In this document: piece by piece, positions 2,574 through 7,704 of the stretch | Layout of the letters: every line of letters starts with the position of its first letter | How positions within the stretch are numbered: the stretch's first letter is position 1 | Source of the DNA: Candidatus Hodarchaeota archaeon | GTDB lineage: Archaea > Asgardarchaeota > Heimdallarchaeia > Hodarchaeales > Hodarchaeaceae | DNA: 7,770 bases | Direction: 5' to 3' | Assembly (NCBI GenBank): GCA_016839665.1 | Contig: JAEOTU010000223.1 | Span: forward strand, 1 to 7,770 | The notes under the pieces: generated by a model | Told to the model about the DNA's origin: nothing | The model's input: only the letters and a program-made list of their open reading frames with translations | Databases searched by the model: none | Translations under genes and position numbers: made by a program

Positions 2574-2589
2574 CGAAACCCTTTTTAAG
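2574..2589 (+). promoter_or_regulatory. BRE/TATA promoter of the winged-helix gene
   Basis: CGAAAC (2574-2579) matches a purine-rich archaeal BRE and is followed by the TATA-like TTTTTAAG (2582-2589). Initiation would be expected near 2608-2612, inside the 11-bp repeats that begin at once after the TATA box. This is the classic position for an archaeal repressor operator. Confidence 0.5.
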
Positions 2590-2630
2590 TTGATGATTTG
2601 TTGATTATGTGTTGATTAACTGTTGATGGT
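2587..2630 (+). repeat. Four 11-bp direct repeats (iteron-like operator)
   Basis: GTTGAT occurs at 2589, 2600, 2611 and 2622, exactly 11 bases apart, with a consensus unit close to TTGTTGATTAT. A degenerate fifth copy (GTTGAG at 2629) is out of phase. Spacing near one helical turn would put all four cores on the same face of the DNA, as expected for cooperative binding by a small winged-helix protein. The array lies between the TATA box and the ribosome-binding site of the winged-helix gene, so autoregulation is the simplest reading. GTTGATTAA recurs at 3843, just before the ATPase gene. Confidence 0.75.
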
Positions 2631-2658
2631 TGAGATGGTTAATTGACCCCACAACCTT

Positions 2659-2664
2659 AGGTGA
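2659..2664 (+). promoter_or_regulatory. Ribosome-binding site of the winged-helix gene
   Basis: AGGTGA lies 6 bases before ATG at 2671, which fixes the start codon. Confidence 0.6.
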
Positions 2665-2670
2665 AAAATT

Positions 2671-2937
2671 ATGGCAGCAATAGACTCAAGCGACGTTATA
2701 AAAAGTGAGCAGCTTATTGAAGACGATGGCAAAATAACTCAGCTTCCCAAATCAGCGCAAGAGGTCTATTCTTTGCTCTGCGCTAACGGTGCCTTAAAAC
2801 CCCGCGAGATAGGATCGTATACGGCCCTTTCCAACAGAACCATCCGATATGCCCTTAAAATTCTCGTGGATGATTTGCTTGTTCGCCGTGTTCCTGACTT
2901 ACACGACTTACGCTCTCACTATTATGCGGTAAATTAG
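2671..2937 (+). CDS. Small winged-helix DNA-binding protein (MarR/TrmB-like fold), AspA-like candidate
   Basis: The 88-residue protein has a charged N-terminus of about 24 residues followed by a complete winged helix-turn-helix. Helix 1 is LPKSAQEVYSLLCANG (25-40), helix 2 LKPREIGSYTA (42-52), recognition helix SNRTIRYALKILVDD (54-68), and the wing runs from VRRVP to HYYAVN (71-88). The pattern SNRTIRYALKIL is typical of archaeal MarR/TrmB-type domains. There is no sensor domain, so it is either a minimal repressor or a structural DNA-binding protein. Upstream are four 11-bp repeats that are probably its operator. It is the first of three same-strand genes ending with a ParA/MinD ATPase. The size matches the roughly 93-residue winged-helix AspA of the pNOB8 partition operon (known from that system); the equivalence is inferred. 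Confidence 0.85.
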   Translation: MAAIDSSDVIKSEQLIEDDGKITQLPKSAQEVYSLLCANGALKPREIGSYTALSNRTIRYALKILVDDLLVRRVPDLHDLRSHYYAVN

Positions 2938-3001
2938 TACTAGTCCTGTATGGGATGCACAGTGCTTTCAATTTATCTCAAGATTTGGCTTGGAATTTGG
3001 T

Positions 3002-3019
3002 GTTACAGTGTACTGTAAC
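3002..3019. promoter_or_regulatory. Perfect 18-bp dyad, candidate operator or centromere site
   Basis: GTTACAGT and ACTGTAAC are exact reverse complements around a central GT. This is the longest mixed-composition perfect palindrome I found in the window. It sits 65 bases after the winged-helix gene and 163 bases before the coiled-coil gene. No poly-T run follows, which argues against a terminator. It would suit a dimeric winged-helix protein. Confidence 0.55.
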
Positions 3020-3109
3020 CTATCAAGTATGAATTTGGAGCGATAAGAATATGCAGGAGGTCTAAAAAGCGTAGCAAATTCCCTTTAATTTTTCCATTTT
3101 TTCATAAAA

Positions 3110-3142
3110 TTTAAAAATAGTTTTAAAAATTAATTTAAAAAT
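3110..3142 (+). repeat. Three TTTAAAAAT repeats with 12-bp phasing, probable promoter region
   Basis: The same nine bases, TTTAAAAAT, begin at 3110, 3122 and 3134. Each also resembles an archaeal TATA box. With initiation about 25 bases after the last copy, the leader of the 3183 gene would be about 20 bases and has no Shine-Dalgarno. The repeats may be a promoter, an AT-rich binding array, or both. Low sequence complexity makes some regularity likely by chance. Confidence 0.45.
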
Positions 3143-3182
3143 TTTCATCAACAAATACACTTTTCTTCAATCAGGGTTTCCC

Positions 3183-3833
3183 ATGGACTCAACAGAGAAA
3201 ACAAATGAGAAAAAAGAGAAAAAATCTGTTGATCTTCTTAGTGTGAACCTACAAGAAACCATTCCCAGGATTGTGTATCAGAGTCTAGACGGGGTTCGGA
3301 ACGACATTCAAAACCTCCAAGAGGCTAGTAAAGACTTACAATTGATGATGCGAGGTATTCATGCTGAAATCCGGGAGATAAAGGAAGCCACTCAAGGTAT
3401 TGAACGTACTATTGGGTCGTTACTGGATAAAACAGTCATCAAAAAAGCTGTCAAGCCTCCTGTGAGAGAAATCTCCACTGGATTAGATTTACTAACGCAA
3501 ATTCCCCAGCACCTTAGACGTACGTTTGAGACTATTCTCAAGCTTGAAAAAGGAGCAACTGCTTTGCAAGTTTCTCTTCAAACGGGAAAAAGTCGACCAC
3601 TGGAAAGTGATTATTTAAACCAACTGACAGAAAGAGGGTTTGTACTCAAGAAACATGTTGGAAAAAAAGTCCTTTTCGTGGGCAAGTTTGGTGAGATCAA
3701 TGGCGAGGAAGAAGCAACGGACTCCGATCCCGACGAATCAATCGATTTTATTGCTATGAAAAAAATGGAAGTGATGAATGCTTCCAATTCGTCTGATAAA
3801 AAGATTATTCGCATCGAAACCCTTGAAGAATGA
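3183..3833 (+). CDS. Coiled-coil plus winged-helix protein, candidate ParB-like partner of the adjacent ATPase
   Basis: The 216-residue product begins with a Lys/Glu-rich tail (1-15). A long helical, coiled-coil region follows (about 36-84, with heptad-like hydrophobics through VRNDIQNLQEASKDLQLMM and IREIKEATQGIERTIGSLL). A linker leads to a winged-helix domain at about 100-166: helix RRTFETILKLEKG, a short helix ATALQVSLQTGKS, recognition helix RPLESDYLNQLTERG, and a strand pair FVLKKHVGKKVLFVG. After it comes an acidic stretch (EEEATDSDPDES) and a mixed tail. This resembles Asgard and other archaeal coiled-coil HTH proteins; no named family is certain. It precedes the ParA/MinD-like gene by 32 bases on the same strand, where partition operons keep their centromere-binding or adaptor protein. 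The acidic tail or coiled coil could contact the ATPase. ATG at 3183 lacks a Shine-Dalgarno. DNA binding is likely; partition role is inferred. Confidence 0.85.
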   Translation: MDSTEKTNEKKEKKSVDLLSVNLQETIPRIVYQSLDGVRNDIQNLQEASKDLQLMMRGIHAEIREIKEATQGIERTIGSLLDKTVIKKAVKPPVREISTGLDLLTQIPQHLRRTFETILKLEKGATALQVSLQTGKSRPLESDYLNQLTERGFVLKKHVGKKVLFVGKFGEINGEEEATDSDPDESIDFIAMKKMEVMNASNSSDKKIIRIETLEE

Positions 3834-3865
3834 TTGCTACCAGTTGATTAATTGAAGTGATAATG

Positions 3866-4660
3866 ATGAAGATAATCGCTTTTCACAGCTATAAAGGTGG
3901 AACAGGGAAGACTCATTTATCTGCCAATTTGGCCACTGTATTGGCCCTAAAAGGTCATAAGACCGCCTTACTTGATTTAGACTTTCGTGGTCCCAACTTG
4001 CAGACACTCTGCAATATTGAAGCTAGTGTGACTATTAATGATCTCCTTTTCGACCCTGATTTAACAGGGGAGGATATTCTTGTTTCTTTTGAAGATCAAT
4101 ACAAAATTCCTCTCTATGCCGCGTTTGCTTCGACAGACTTTCGTAAAATGGGCGATATTGTTCGTGCTGACAAAAAACAACGGCAACGGTCTCTCAAGCG
4201 TATTTTACGATTACGGGATGAGCTTTCTGAAGCAGGTTTTGATTATACTATTATCGATACTAGCCCGGGTGTGCAAATGGAAAGTATTGATGGATTGGTG
4301 ATTAGTGATGCGACCTGTCTCGTTCTGAAAGCGGATGATTTCGATATTTCAGGCACCAAGAGCATGGTTACTCAGCTTTACTCTCTCCTAGACAGTAAAA
4401 ACTATGTTGTGCTGAACCGAGTTGTTGCAGAGAAATGTCCGCCCGAACAGGGTGTCTGGGACAATGATGATTTGAAAATGGTCAAGCAGTTTGAAGAAAC
4501 GATTAAAGAAGAAATGCGCATGGAAGTTATTACCTCTATTCCTTGTTTCTGTGAAGTCGCCCGGGAAGGCTCACGCAGTATTTTCAGTATTAAACATCCT
4601 GAGCATTATTTCAGCAAATATATTGAAGAATTAGCCACCAAATTATTAAATGGCTTTTGA
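3866..4660 (+). CDS. ParA/MinD-family deviant-Walker ATPase
   Basis: The 264-residue protein belongs to the ParA/MinD/Soj branch of P-loop ATPases, which dimerise on ATP and position DNA or protein cargo. Visible motifs (numbered from ATG 3866) are the deviant Walker A KGGTGKT at 10-16 with signature Lys10 and catalytic Lys15, Walker A' LLDLDFRGPN at 35-44, Walker B IIDTSPG at 129-135, and VVLNRV, the usual base-contacting Asn region. The C-terminus ends in SKYIEELATKLLNGF and lacks the basic amphipathic helix used by bacterial MinD for membrane binding, which favours a ParA/Soj-like role. Starts at GTG 3857 and ATG 3863 are also open; AGTGA at 3856-3860 is best spaced for 3866, giving MKIIAFHSYKGG. 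It is probably co-transcribed with the coiled-coil HTH gene. A copy of its 3' end lies after vapC. Confidence 0.9.
   Translation: MKIIAFHSYKGGTGKTHLSANLATVLALKGHKTALLDLDFRGPNLQTLCNIEASVTINDLLFDPDLTGEDILVSFEDQYKIPLYAAFASTDFRKMGDIVRADKKQRQRSLKRILRLRDELSEAGFDYTIIDTSPGVQMESIDGLVISDATCLVLKADDFDISGTKSMVTQLYSLLDSKNYVVLNRVVAEKCPPEQGVWDNDDLKMVKQFEETIKEEMRMEVITSIPCFCEVAREGSRSIFSIKHPEHYFSKYIEELATKLLNGF
4575..4612 (+). repeat. 38-bp direct repeat, left copy (inside the ATPase gene)
   Basis: These bases encode RSIFSIKHPEHYF of the ATPase. By hand alignment without gaps they match 5533-5570 at 31 of 38 positions. Together the two copies bracket vapBC. Confidence 0.6.
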
Positions 4661-4824: not shown

Positions 4825-4852
4825 TTATCATATTGTCATATGATAATATGAC
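4825..4852. promoter_or_regulatory. vapBC operator: nested dyads over the start of vapB
   Basis: TTATCATA (4825-4832) and TATGATAA (4839-4846) form a perfect inverted repeat around TTGTCA. GTCATA (4835-4840) and TATGAC (4847-4852) form a second one. Bases 4828-4851 form a 24-bp palindrome centred on CATATG with a single mismatched pair. The dyads cover the predicted transcription start and the vapB ATG, where binding of the VapBC complex would block transcription. VapBC autoregulation is well established; its use of this site is inferred. Confidence 0.65.
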
Positions 4853-5114
4853 AACTATTCATGTTAAAGACGAGGTGTGGAAGAAACTTAATTCGCTAAA
4901 AGAGCCAGGCCAATCAATGAATGAAGTCATTGAACACCTTTTAGCAATCAATGAATCCAATCTTAGGCAAAGAGCTTCTGAGAATTCAACCAGCTCATTC
5001 GAGGAATTTGACGCATTACTTGATGATTTTGTTTCAACAATTTCAGAGAAATCAATCCAAGAAACAATAGAAATCTCTCGGAAATCCTTTTCAAAGGAAG
5101 TTTTGGAGAAATGA
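4848..5114 (+). CDS. vapB: VapB-type antitoxin
   Basis: The 88-residue antitoxin partner of the PIN-domain toxin encoded next to it. Residues 1-32 (MTTIHVKDEVWKKLNSLK, PGQSMNEVIEHLL) match the pattern of short archaeal VapB antitoxins: a beta strand with alternating residues, a helix, then a second helix. This N-terminal part should dimerise and bind the operator. The C-terminal part (33-88) is polar and rich in Ser, Glu and Phe (SFEEFDALLDDF, SRKSFSKEVLEK). It is probably unfolded until it wraps the toxin and blocks its active site. An upstream TTG at 4833 is in frame, but ATG 4848 is chosen because it gives the family start MTTI and the promoter leaves no room for a leader. The stop overlaps the toxin start by four bases (ATGA), implying translational coupling. 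Confidence 0.85.
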   Translation: MTTIHVKDEVWKKLNSLKEPGQSMNEVIEHLLAINESNLRQRASENSTSSFEEFDALLDDFVSTISEKSIQETIEISRKSFSKEVLEK

Positions 5115-5524
5115 ATCAAATTCTCTTAGATACCAATGTCTTCAACGATAAGCCATTACTTAAAAAAGTGAAAATTCACTCTCAGAAGGGAAACGTCCAA
5201 GCATTCGTCAATCCTGTGATTTATCTCGAATTAGGGTACATTTTCCGAGTTCGACATAAATTCCATGTGTTTAAAAAGGTATTAGAAGAAGCAGCTATTA
5301 AATGTATATCGTTGACAGCACGTACAGCTGAACAAGCAAGTCAACTAGCTATAAATTTTAAGGATGATCCCCGTGGGGCCCAATATTTCTTTCGTGACTG
5401 CTTAATAGGTGCCACTGCCCTAGAAAACGATTTTATTCTTATAACTACTAATAAAAAGGATTTTCCTTATTTAACGAAGAAATGGACACCTCTAGAATTT
5501 ATTGAAACTCTACTACATCCATAA
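5111..5524 (+). CDS. vapC: VapC-type PIN-domain ribonuclease toxin
   Basis: The 137-residue protein is a complete PIN domain, the metal-dependent RNase fold of VapC toxins. The acidic active-site residues are visible: Asp7 in LLDTNVF, Glu40 in IYLELGY, Asp96 in FFRDCLIGATAL, and Asp117 with Asn114 in TTNKKDF. Size and order of motifs are normal, with no truncation, so the toxin is probably active unless held by VapB. VapC enzymes cut tRNA or rRNA; the target here cannot be told. It overlaps vapB by ATGA and ends with TAA at 5522-5524, eight bases before the partial ATPase 3'-end copy. The placement suggests acquisition of the module as a unit and possible stabilisation of the neighbouring ParA-like locus. 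Confidence 0.9.
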   Translation: MNQILLDTNVFNDKPLLKKVKIHSQKGNVQAFVNPVIYLELGYIFRVRHKFHVFKKVLEEAAIKCISLTARTAEQASQLAINFKDDPRGAQYFFRDCLIGATALENDFILITTNKKDFPYLTKKWTPLEFIETLLHP

Positions 5525-5816: not shown

Positions 5817-6491
5817 TCAAACGAACCTACCAGATGACATTCTGTGAGTTTGATCGGCGTACCGTTTGAGTTCCTCATTATGAGTGACAACTAGGATGGC
5901 TGTATCCCGCTTGGTGAAGCTCTTCAGAAGTCGCATGATCGAAGCAGCATTGTCTGTATCAAGGTTTCCAGTTGGTTCATCAGCAAAAATGATTCGAGGT
6001 TTTCCTACAAGCGCTCGGGCAATCCCAACCCGCTGTTGTTCTCCACCGCTCAGTTCACCAGGATAATTATCTGCTTTGTCCCATAGACCAACTTGTTTCA
6101 AGAGAGAAACAGCACGGGTTCTCATTTCTCTACCTTTTATTTTCATGGGATAAAGTGGCGATTCAATGTTTTCCAGGGCAGTCATAATGGGAATAAGCTC
6201 CCAGTTTTGAAAAATGAATCCAACATTACCTCTTCTAAAGGCAGCTAATTTCTCTTCATCCCAATCTGCGATATTTTCATCATCATAGAGAACTTTCCCT
6301 TCCGAGGCTTTGTCCAAACCTGAAAGAATGTTCAATAAAGTTGATTTTCCTGACCCCGAGGGACCCGTCACCATGACCATTTTTGCTTTTGGGATTTGCA
6401 TATCGACGTCATTGACCGCGATCACTACCTCTTTTCCTCGGGTGTATTCCTTACTCAAGTTTTTGGCTTCAATTACTACTCTAGTGCTCAT
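5817..6491 (-). CDS. ABC transporter ATPase, MacB/LolD type
   Basis: The 224-residue nucleotide-binding subunit belongs to the MacB/LolD/FtsE class. Motifs are complete: Walker [10 protein letters not shown] at 43-51, Q-loop Gln95 in [10 protein letters not shown], signature LSGGEQQR at 147-154, Walker [13 protein letters not shown] at 167-178, and H-loop His204 in [16 protein letters not shown] and FQNxELIP are hallmarks of the class that pairs with FtsX-like permeases and drives mechanical work such as lipoprotein or peptide extrusion rather than classic import. ATG at 6489-6491 is chosen because GAGGTGA lies five bases upstream; an in-frame TTG at 6524 would overlap the permease gene and lacks such a site. 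It follows the permease gene by 10 bases in one operon. The substrate is not evident. Confidence 0.95.
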
Positions 6492-6496
6492 TTTTT

Positions 6497-6503
6497 TCAC
6501 CTC
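6497..6503 (-). promoter_or_regulatory. Strong ribosome-binding site overlapping the permease stop
   Basis: On the minus strand GAGGTGA spans 6503-6497, five bases before the ATPase ATG (6491). It overlaps the permease stop TGA (6504-6502), so translation of the two subunits is probably coupled. Confidence 0.7.
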
Positions 6504-7704
6504 ACTTTTGTCGGAAAATTTCAATTGGTCGAACTGCGAGAATGCGGAACGTTATCAAGAAAAAACCAGGAATACAAAAGATGACTACAGCAAAGAAGGA
6601 AAAGAGTGCTGTTGAAGAAAAGATGATATAAAACACATAGGAACCCTGGCTAACGAAGTATAAATATCCTTGAATGGCTAACAATCCAATTACGTACCCT
6701 GTTATCGCTACCACAAGGATTTCGCTTAAGACTACTATTCGTACATTCCAGCCAGAATACCCCATTGCTTTTAGTACCGCTACTTCTCTCCTACGGAATC
6801 GTGTTATCAAGTAGGAGTATAATGTACTCACCATAAATGTGCCAAACATTCCAAATAACAATGATAGGACCATCATATTTCTTGTTTCGTCTTTATTTGC
6901 CTTGTTTGTAAAAATAGGATCTTGAAAACCAGTAAGACCTGTATGAGTACTTGCAAGAGTATCCACATTATCATAGGTTTGACCGGTGAAAATTTGCATA
7001 AAATCACCACCTGCTAATATTGAAACGGAATGTATATAGATTTCATCATTGTCATAACCTAGATGATTTGTGCTAACAAGTAAGTCAAACGCGTCTTCAG
7101 TGATCAAAATCCATTCAAAATTTGTATCAGTAGCAACTGTTGATGCTTCTGGTTTCTCATAAATCCCTGACACTCTTAAATCAAATGTAGAATCAATATC
7201 TTCTCCTAGTTTAAATTTTGTCCCGACAACTGGTTTTGTGAAAAGAAGTACATCATCACCCGCCTCGTCATCTTCTAGTTCCATAAAGATATTCTCTGAC
7301 ACTAACACATCATCGTCACTGTTAGGAAAAGTGCCTGAAACTAGATTATTGGGTTTAATTTCGGAAAAAGCCCAAGGGTATTTCGGATCAATACTAAATA
7401 TCCGTAAGCTAGATCCAAAGTTCACATATTTGAAATAAATTACCGCTTCAGCACCAATTACATTTTGTCCTATTGCTGTTTCAGCGGCATCAAGACGAAT
7501 ATTAGGACCTGTACCAAAGCCACTAGCCTTAAGCACGACCCCTCGATGAGTTAATAGCTCTTGACGTGAAAAGTTATCAAAATAGCTTAATAATAAGATG
7601 GTTGCTCCACTAAGGATCGCAAAAACAATTACAAAGGTGAAAAACCTTCTTCGGGAGCGTGTGCTGAAAATAATTGATTTTCTTAAAAGTTTTAACATAC
7701 CCAT
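6502..7704 (-). CDS. FtsX/MacB-family ABC permease
   Basis: The 400-residue protein has the four-helix layout of the MacB/FtsX/LolC superfamily. A basic N-terminus (LLRKSIIFSTRSRRR) precedes membrane helix 1 at about 21-41. An extracellular domain of about 235 residues follows, and three helices close the protein (about 279-302, 325-350, 355-385). The loop RFRRREVAVLKAMGYSGWNV after helix 2 is the coupling region that contacts the ATPase and is the clearest family signature; the ending LAVRPIEIFRQ is also typical. The outer domain is acidic and rich in beta-type sequence (EDDEAGDDVLLF, STFDLRVSGIYE), like MacB periplasmic domains. ATG 7704 is used; Met3 is an alternative. It is first in a two-gene operon with the ATPase. 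No adaptor (MacA-like) gene is in the window. Probable role: export or mechanotransmission at the cell envelope. Confidence 0.93.
   Translation of the reverse strand: MGMLKLLRKSIIFSTRSRRRFFTFVIVFAILSGATILLLSYFDNFSRQELLTHRGVVLKASGFGTGPNIRLDAAETAIGQNVIGAEAVIYFKYVNFGSSLRIFSIDPKYPWAFSEIKPNNLVSGTFPNSDDDVLVSENIFMELEDDEAGDDVLLFTKPVVGTKFKLGEDIDSTFDLRVSGIYEKPEASTVATDTNFEWILITEDAFDLLVSTNHLGYDNDEIYIHSVSILAGGDFMQIFTGQTYDNVDTLASTHTGLTGFQDPIFTNKANKDETRNMMVLSLLFGMFGTFMVSTLYSYLITRFRRREVAVLKAMGYSGWNVRIVVLSEILVVAITGYVIGLLAIQGYLYFVSQGSYVFYIIFSSTALFSFFAVVIFCIPGFFLITFRILAVRPIEIFRQK

Follow-up and report, generated by a model that had tools for sequence, protein, structure and literature searches.

A conserved cassette of two winged-helix proteins and a ParA/MinD-type ATPase in Hodarchaeales, and its wider Asgard family

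Genetic organization of the cassette

The window analysed here is a stretch of 7770 nucleotides (nt) from Candidatus Hodarchaeota archaeon (contig JAEOTU010000223.1). A first-pass annotation of this window had described three plus-strand genes encoding, in order, a small winged-helix protein (wH88), a coiled-coil protein with an internal winged helix and an acidic tail (CC216) and a ParA/MinD-type ATPase, and had read them as a DNA segregation or positioning device analogous to the three-gene partition cassette of plasmid pNOB8. The open reading frames (ORFs) were found as described, with spacers of 245 bp between wH88 and CC216 and of 32 bp between CC216 and the ATPase gene:

2671-2937, plus strand: wH88, 88 amino acids (aa), MarR-like winged helix; on sequence grounds the likely GTTGAT binder
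3183-3833, plus strand: CC216, 216 aa; N-terminus disordered, then a coiled coil (23-83), a basic winged helix (~100-167) and an acidic tail; putative partner of the ATPase
3866-4660 (possible earlier GTG start at 3857), plus strand: ATPase of ParA/MinD type, a P-loop protein with the deviant Walker A motif KGGTGKT and a conserved CxC (C227, C229)

Conservation of the trio

The three genes are co-inherited. A protein search returned 47 relatives of CC216 and 51 of wH88, and those named to organism (11 and 13, respectively) were all Asgard archaea (Hodarchaeales/Hodarchaeota, Heimdallarchaeota, Thorarchaeota and Promethearchaeota). A genome scan gave 11 loci, eight of which (L001-L008) hold all three genes in the same order, so that the arrangement is not restricted to one genome. 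Of the others, L009 and L011 break off within wH88 where their contigs end, and L010, from a record titled Aenigmarchaeota, matches wH88 weakly and has neither of the other genes. The L004 trio is part of a chromosome record of 3.16 Mb (genome G004, a single contig). The name Hodarchaeales is our own grouping for these organisms, the record titles reading Hodarchaeota, Hodarchaeum or Heimdallarchaeota. When the search was widened to 227 genomes of the phylum of G004, taken as Asgard, a full-length CC216 match was found in only the same eight genomes. Strong wH88 matches (E 2e-39 or better, the next being 6e-23) were confined to the same eight, and a wH88 match of some kind occurred in 148 of the 227.

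GTTGAT repeats in the promoter regions

Direct repeats, a perfect dyad and phased AT-rich units had been noted between the genes, and all are present in the window. Distances are given relative to the start of the gene that follows:

2582-2589, plus strand: TATA-like box TTTTTAAG, placed at -89 relative to the wH88 start codon and sharing its final G with the array, which begins there
2589-2627, plus strand: GTTGAT array of four units (2589, 2600, 2611, 2622) exactly 11 bp apart, at -82, -71, -60 and -49; probable operator and possible partition site
3002-3019, no strand assigned: 8-2-8 dyad GTTACAGT-gt-ACTGTAAC, with a symmetric change in L001
3110-3141, no strand assigned: three TTTAAAAA units (3110, 3122, 3134) 12 bp apart, an AT-rich promoter-like stretch before CC216, the same in L001
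3147-3152, minus strand: one GTTGAT unit (ATCAAC as read on the plus strand), at -36 of CC216
3843-3848, plus strand: single GTTGAT, at -23 of the ATPase gene

Among promoter regions, GTTGAT distinguishes those of the trio from those of related gene pairs that lack wH88. It was the most enriched of all 6-mers in the trio spacers (35 occurrences vs 2.8 expected, at 9 of 9 loci) and was not enriched at 58 related loci that lack wH88 beside the pair (6 vs 9.7 expected, counted in the 200 nt preceding the pair, or preceding the ATPase gene if no non-overlapping partner was recognised). On this evidence wH88 is the likely binder of GTTGAT. Four units in 200 nt were reached by 1 of 20,000 first-order Markov shuffles. 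At least two units were present within 200 nt before wH88 at all eight readable loci (the window, L002, L003 and L005-L009); L001 holds just 23 nt upstream of wH88, and this region is masked in L004. The stretch missing from L001 was supplied by L009, which comes from the same assembly and whose final 127 nt are also the beginning of L001.

The units recur close to a TATA-like box. L009 has the box ATTTAATA at -90, followed by GTTGAT at -81, -74 and -67 and an inverse unit at -56, and L003, L005 and L007 have a box at -89 with GTTGAT at -80, -72 and -58 (also at -47 in L003). In five of the eight loci (the window, L003, L005, L007 and L009) the box starts 7-9 bp before the first unit, against a background of 5% for a loose TATA pattern 7-9 bp before a random position. 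The position of the array just past the box suggests an operator over the start region; by analogy with plasmid par loci, the array may perhaps serve as a centromere also. The layout of the units is variable, with 11-bp direct repeats in the window and 7-bp direct repeats plus an inverse unit in L009 and L008. A single unit lies at -32 to -40 of CC216 at five of nine loci (the window, L001, L002, L004 and L006). The palindrome TTGATGATCATCAA was found in L008 and L006, and its three sites in the eight genomes comprise two at the trio and one inside an ORF. The units of L009 (4274-4473) are arranged as in Hodarchaeum mangrovi (L008), unlike those of the window, although wH88 and the next spacer of this nearest relative are almost identical to those of the window.

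When up to 2 mismatches were allowed, the three-unit array was found 10 times in the eight genomes, seven times at the trio, and a reversed control gave no match. Of the matches away from the trio, one is inside an ORF (G001:C429, L164) and two are in a tandem array on G002:C130. With few matches elsewhere, the sites are not dispersed in the manner of parS. The tandem array (L182, near 5109) is a perfect GTTGATGATTT repeat containing four GTTGAT units; it lies upstream of a putative secreted protein and overlaps a 95-aa ORF on the other strand.

The remaining elements of the window are less widely conserved. A dyad with any 8-bp arms and a gap of 0-8 arose in 89 of 1000 shuffles, so the dyad alone is weak evidence. 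Its counterpart in L001, GTTACAGC-gt-GCTGTAAC, has changed symmetrically; no dyad was seen in the spacers of L002-L008, and with only the window and L001 carrying it, the dyad was rejected as a general feature of the cassette. The TTTAAAAA triple arose in 29 of 10,000 shuffles of 3091-3150.

The window and L001, its nearest relative, are nearly identical over wH88 and the following spacer (228 of 245 spacer positions). Along 2641-3441 of the window, DNA identity is 82-100% over wH88 and the spacer, declines gradually from ~3190 to 3400, and is ~60% inside CC216; in the ATPase gene it is 76-96%. At 4-fold sites the two sequences agree in 33 of 39 cases for wH88, 30 of 52 for CC216 and 48 of 100 for the ATPase gene. 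Local gene exchange explains this pattern as well as constraint does, because the 4-fold sites of wH88 are also conserved and the drop in identity is gradual.

Predicted structures of wH88 and CC216

Neither wH88 nor CC216 exceeded any Pfam or NCBIfam cut-off. The AlphaFold2 model of wH88 (mean predicted local distance difference test score, pLDDT, 80) contains a winged helix at residues 27-87 and, together with its structural relatives, predicts a MarR-type winged-helix fold. CC216 was modelled with a 61-residue helix (23-83), a winged helix at ~100-167 and a short helix (184-201) in the acidic tail (mean pLDDT 70, predicted template modelling score 0.36). The net charge of CC216 is +6 in the winged helix and -9 over residues 170-216. 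The winged helix of wH88 is likewise net positive. In an alignment of 46 rows, the heptad core of the long helix (35, 38, 42 ... 80) was 88% hydrophobic vs 21% elsewhere in 30-82, and the next best of the seven phases reached 65%; the core positions (35-80) had been picked on the sequence from the window itself.

The ATPase

The ATPase exceeded the Pfam cut-offs of AAA_31 (2e-18), CbiA (1.8e-13) and ParA (3.1e-13) and matched PHROG 164, 'ParA-like partition protein' (2.8e-27). It belongs to the ParA/MinD superfamily, with KGGTGKT conserved at 90% or more in 34 aligned rows. It is not MinD proper, its score against minD_arch being 54.2 bits (1.1e-14) where the cut-off is 201.75 bits. A structural search gave MinD, 'site-determining' proteins, FleN and Soj as the best solved relatives. 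The CxC (IPCFCEV; C227 and C229) is invariant in the 34 aligned ATPases, two of which have Bathyarchaeal names; by strict pattern it is present in 34 of the 67 ATPases of the wider set described next.

A wider Asgard family of ATPase-partner pairs

Most members of the Asgard family to which the ATPase belongs adjoin a partner, and these partners have a common C-terminal winged helix. With the ATPase as query, 54 of the 227 genomes gave a total of 67 matches at E 1e-25 or better; the set of 67 loci analysed here consists of 58 of the 59 non-trio matches, the eight trio loci and the window. A winged-helix protein of the CC216 type lies directly beside the ATPase at 46 of the 67 loci, or at 48 if an intervening ORF that is likely spurious is disregarded in L007 and L110. 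Eleven of the 19 loci without a partner form one clade (L146, L148, L150, L152-L156 and L158-L160); L109, L117 and L143 are cut at a contig end on one side, and the others are L106, L130, L136, L161 and L162. With the un-iterated CC216 profile, 29 proteins were found no more than two genes from an ATPase match.

The N-terminus of the partner varies. It is a coiled coil in the trio and at ten other loci (judged by eye and by length), longin-like at 13 loci, and some other sequence elsewhere. When five longin-like loci were compared with Fuz_longin_1 of Pfam, L110 exceeded the cut-off (2.7e-06, 28.0 vs 26.1 bits), L111, L113 and L129 matched below it and L142 gave no match; the remaining loci of this class were grouped by similarity and position. 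The mean charge of the partner winged helix was +5.2 in the trio, +4.1 in the other coiled-coil partners, +5.4 in the other non-longin partners and +3.5 in the second module described below. A tree of the ATPases grouped the partner classes (11 changes vs 43.8 when shuffled), with several long branches flagged and three rows omitted by length. Distances between ATPases and between partner winged helices were correlated (r 0.85, n = 48, 0 of 999 permutations), as is expected from co-inheritance, shared descent contributing.

Proteins combining a longin-like domain (Fuz/MON1/HPS1 type) with a winged helix follow MinD-type ATPases of other Asgard genomes at L110 (3993-4601), L111 (2367-3020), L113 (2294-2908), L129 (2120-2737) and their kin, and no published account of this pairing was found among the matches listed. 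In three genomes a protein of 332-367 aa with a domain of the wH88 type is encoded nearby, at a distance of two genes from the longin-like gene and of three from that of the ATPase (L111 140-1234, L114 3-998 and L115 135-1238).

A second module, in which a shorter coiled-coil winged-helix gene directly precedes another MinD-type ATPase gene, occurs in five of the eight trio genomes (G001, G003, G005, G006 and G007) and in others. It emerged from 40 chosen loci matching the CC216 profile, of which 15 pair with an ATPase (L219 had already been counted). In 13 of the 15 the ATPase gene is followed on the same strand by a gene for a protein of 455-511 aa with 1-3 hydrophobic segments (by our own scan; one copy is cut). 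In six, a divergent upstream gene encodes a protein of 605-710 aa with two hydrophobic segments; of two such proteins tested, that of L223 has a VWA domain over the cut-off and that of L205 a weak Laminin_G match below it. Loci of this module include L187, L205 and L223-L226.

A possible positioning module

On balance we lean slightly towards reading the cassette as a chromosomal Asgard positioning module of the ParA/MinD type, in which wH88 acts as the regulator in Hodarchaeales. The ATPase would form ATP-dependent dimers on a cell surface, which is probably nucleoid DNA. MinD carries a C-terminal amphipathic membrane-targeting helix; the ATPase sequence stops directly after its last conserved stretch, and nucleoid DNA is favoured because no added helix of that kind is seen at the C-terminus. 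CC216 would form a coiled-coil dimer and serve as the dedicated partner and activator of the ATPase, its basic winged helix linking the ATPase to DNA or to other cargo. wH88 would set the level of the cassette by binding at its own promoter, to the GTTGAT array over the start region, and to the single units before CC216.

A number of observations weigh against this reading. The trio loci are partly non-independent (L003, L005 and L007 are near kin, as are L001 and the window), and the trio with wH88 is one clade, so that the motif could follow descent instead of wH88. L002, L006 and L008 lack a TATA-like match at the distance of 7-9 bp before their first unit. The three-unit matches at the trio all come from three near-kin genomes (G003, G005 and G007), and an exact two-unit GTTGAT pattern was unspecific, with one of 11 matches at the trio and three matches from the reversed control. 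The winged helix of the longin-type partners is neutral (mean charge -0.2, range -6 to 7) and, among the rows listed, lacks the RxxESxYLN helix motif, so the shared winged helix need not bind DNA in all members. The coiled-coil winged-helix family is also not tied to the ATPase everywhere, since 25 of the 40 chosen loci have no adjoining ATPase. An iterated profile of the winged helix, which was built on the same ORFs and drifted to include wH88 so that its E-values are untrustworthy, had 17 of 65 matches that were not immediate neighbours of the ATPase.

Alternative explanations and known systems

Of the segregation or positioning device proposed by the first-pass annotation, the conserved Asgard cassette, the coiled-coil/winged-helix nature of CC216 beside the ATPase and the local repeats that track the cassette are supported. 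DNA segregation itself is possible as one option among several, because the relatives are chromosomal, the repeats resemble an operator in the first instance and the family includes versions linked to membrane and longin-like proteins. As a DNA-partition device in its own right, the cassette would assemble wH88 on the GTTGAT array as a centromere complex, with CC216 as adaptor and the ATPase as motor, on the model of pNOB8 or of plasmid par loci in which a single site is operator and centromere at once. The gene order of winged helix, adaptor and ParA fits such a device, as do an array that adjoins the cassette and is nearly confined to it, the net positive winged helices of CC216 and wH88, and the PHROG 164 match. 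However, the array is located where an operator would be, the pair has relatives with links to membrane and longin-like proteins, and the sites are not scattered. Proximity to an origin might be expected of a site for chromosome segregation. Of the four Cdc6 matches in G004, the one closest to the trio (644-646 kb) is ~508 kb away; linkage to an origin was thus not seen in this one genome, which is weak evidence. We regard partition as possible but doubtful. FleN acts with FleQ, and on that model the ATPase could be an anti-activator or co-repressor of CC216 or wH88 in a purely regulatory circuit that positions nothing. The two winged-helix proteins, the operator-like array and the presence of FleN chains among proteins structurally related to the ATPase are in keeping with such a circuit, but the long conserved coiled coil of the partner is not, and the swapped N-termini, longin-like and other, fit cargo adaptors better; we consider this explanation improbable.

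True homology to the AspA-ParB-ParA cassette of pNOB8 is highly improbable. The order of a small winged helix-turn-helix protein, an adaptor and a ParA-type ATPase is shared, as is a DNA site upstream of the first gene, and winged-helix folds are predicted here too. The proposed likeness held for the gene order only, and no kinship of the first two proteins with AspA and ParB was detected by profiles. Profile comparison with hhalign gave probabilities of 6.6% for AspA (a single AspA sequence, both proteins having the very common winged-helix fold), 0.2% for ParB and 98% for ParA over only 51 columns around Walker A. The pNOB8 chains 4rs8 and 5k5q were found by Foldseek with CC216 at ranks 24, 30, 40 and 41; they carry no weight for kinship because ordinary ArsR/MarR proteins surround them. 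AspA chains were absent among the listed matches of wH88, which excludes nothing. In the pNOB8 system the adaptor bridges the winged helix-turn-helix protein and ParA. AspA binds an upstream palindrome of 23 bp and spreads on the DNA, ParB has 470 residues in two domains, and the ends of aspA, parB and parA overlap (PMC5120986). The present cassette has direct 11-bp repeats instead of that palindrome, spacers of 245 and 32 bp instead of overlapping gene ends, and chromosomal relatives (L004). CC216 is a 216-aa protein modelled as coil plus winged helix, in contrast to the ~470-aa ParB with its Spo0J-like ParB-N and CenpA-like ParB-C. Membership of the pNOB8 type therefore fails on two tested features, the adaptor architecture (as modelled) and the gene overlap.

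Other systems share parts of this organization. Archaeal MinD/ParA ATPases such as Haloferax MinD2 and MinD4 belong to the same superfamily and have the deviant Walker A motif; the ATPase described here differs in falling far under the minD_arch cut-off and in having a dedicated winged-helix partner and the CxC motif. The SegB protein has a ribbon-helix-helix fold. In SegAB, which acts in crenarchaeal and euryarchaeal chromosome segregation, a ParA-type ATPase is likewise paired with a gene for a DNA-binding partner and has upstream sites, and segB is downstream of segA (PMC5120986), whereas both partners here are upstream and are winged helices. Downstream of the ATPase gene we found no SegB-like partner gene, its place being taken by a VapB-like/PIN pair in the window and by a convergent ABC ATPase in seven of eight relatives. 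McdAB and PomXYZ also combine a ParA/MinD ATPase with a dedicated, cargo-specific partner; this likeness is one of description, and the available parts of their accounts mention no winged-helix partner.

A broader proposal, which we rate as rather unlikely, is that of a modular Asgard toolkit in which one core of a ParA/MinD ATPase and a winged-helix partner with swapped N-termini serves DNA, membrane or surface cargo, one Hodarchaeales copy having gained wH88 and the centromere-like GTTGAT array for chromosome segregation. To our knowledge, little is known of chromosome segregation or of the placing of cellular structures in Asgard archaea. No description of an Asgard module of ATPase and winged helix was found among the matches listed from the open-licence PubMed Central (PMC) literature, and an account elsewhere is possible. 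A Heimdallarchaeal clade has been described as the one phylogenetically closest to eukaryotes (PMC8813620). The conserved pair with its swapped N-termini, one of them longin-like, offers a small protein set open to purification and direct study, and the GTTGAT array of the trio is an immediate DNA-binding target for separating operator from centromere.

Neighbouring genes and other observations

No RNA genes were found in the window. A defence function was rejected, PADLOC matches being weak (best 5.9e-05) and over the Walker region. A plasmid or viral origin was also rejected as unlikely: alignments of wH88 and CC216 had no match in viral contigs, and CC216, the only one searched there, had none in plasmids.

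Downstream of the trio, the convergent ABC ATPase present in seven of the eight relatives is followed by an FtsX-like permease in contigs that extend far enough; in L001 another ORF stands in place of the ABC ATPase. The window has the same ABC/permease pair with a VapB-like antitoxin (DUF7557/VAPB_antitox) and a PIN-domain toxin (4833-5524) interposed between the trio ATPase and the ABC ATPase, a pair missing at this place in the seven relatives that have the ABC gene. On the minus strand of the window, 5817-7704 encodes a LolD/FtsE-like ABC ATPase and an FtsX/MacB-like permease, the latter by a weak family match.

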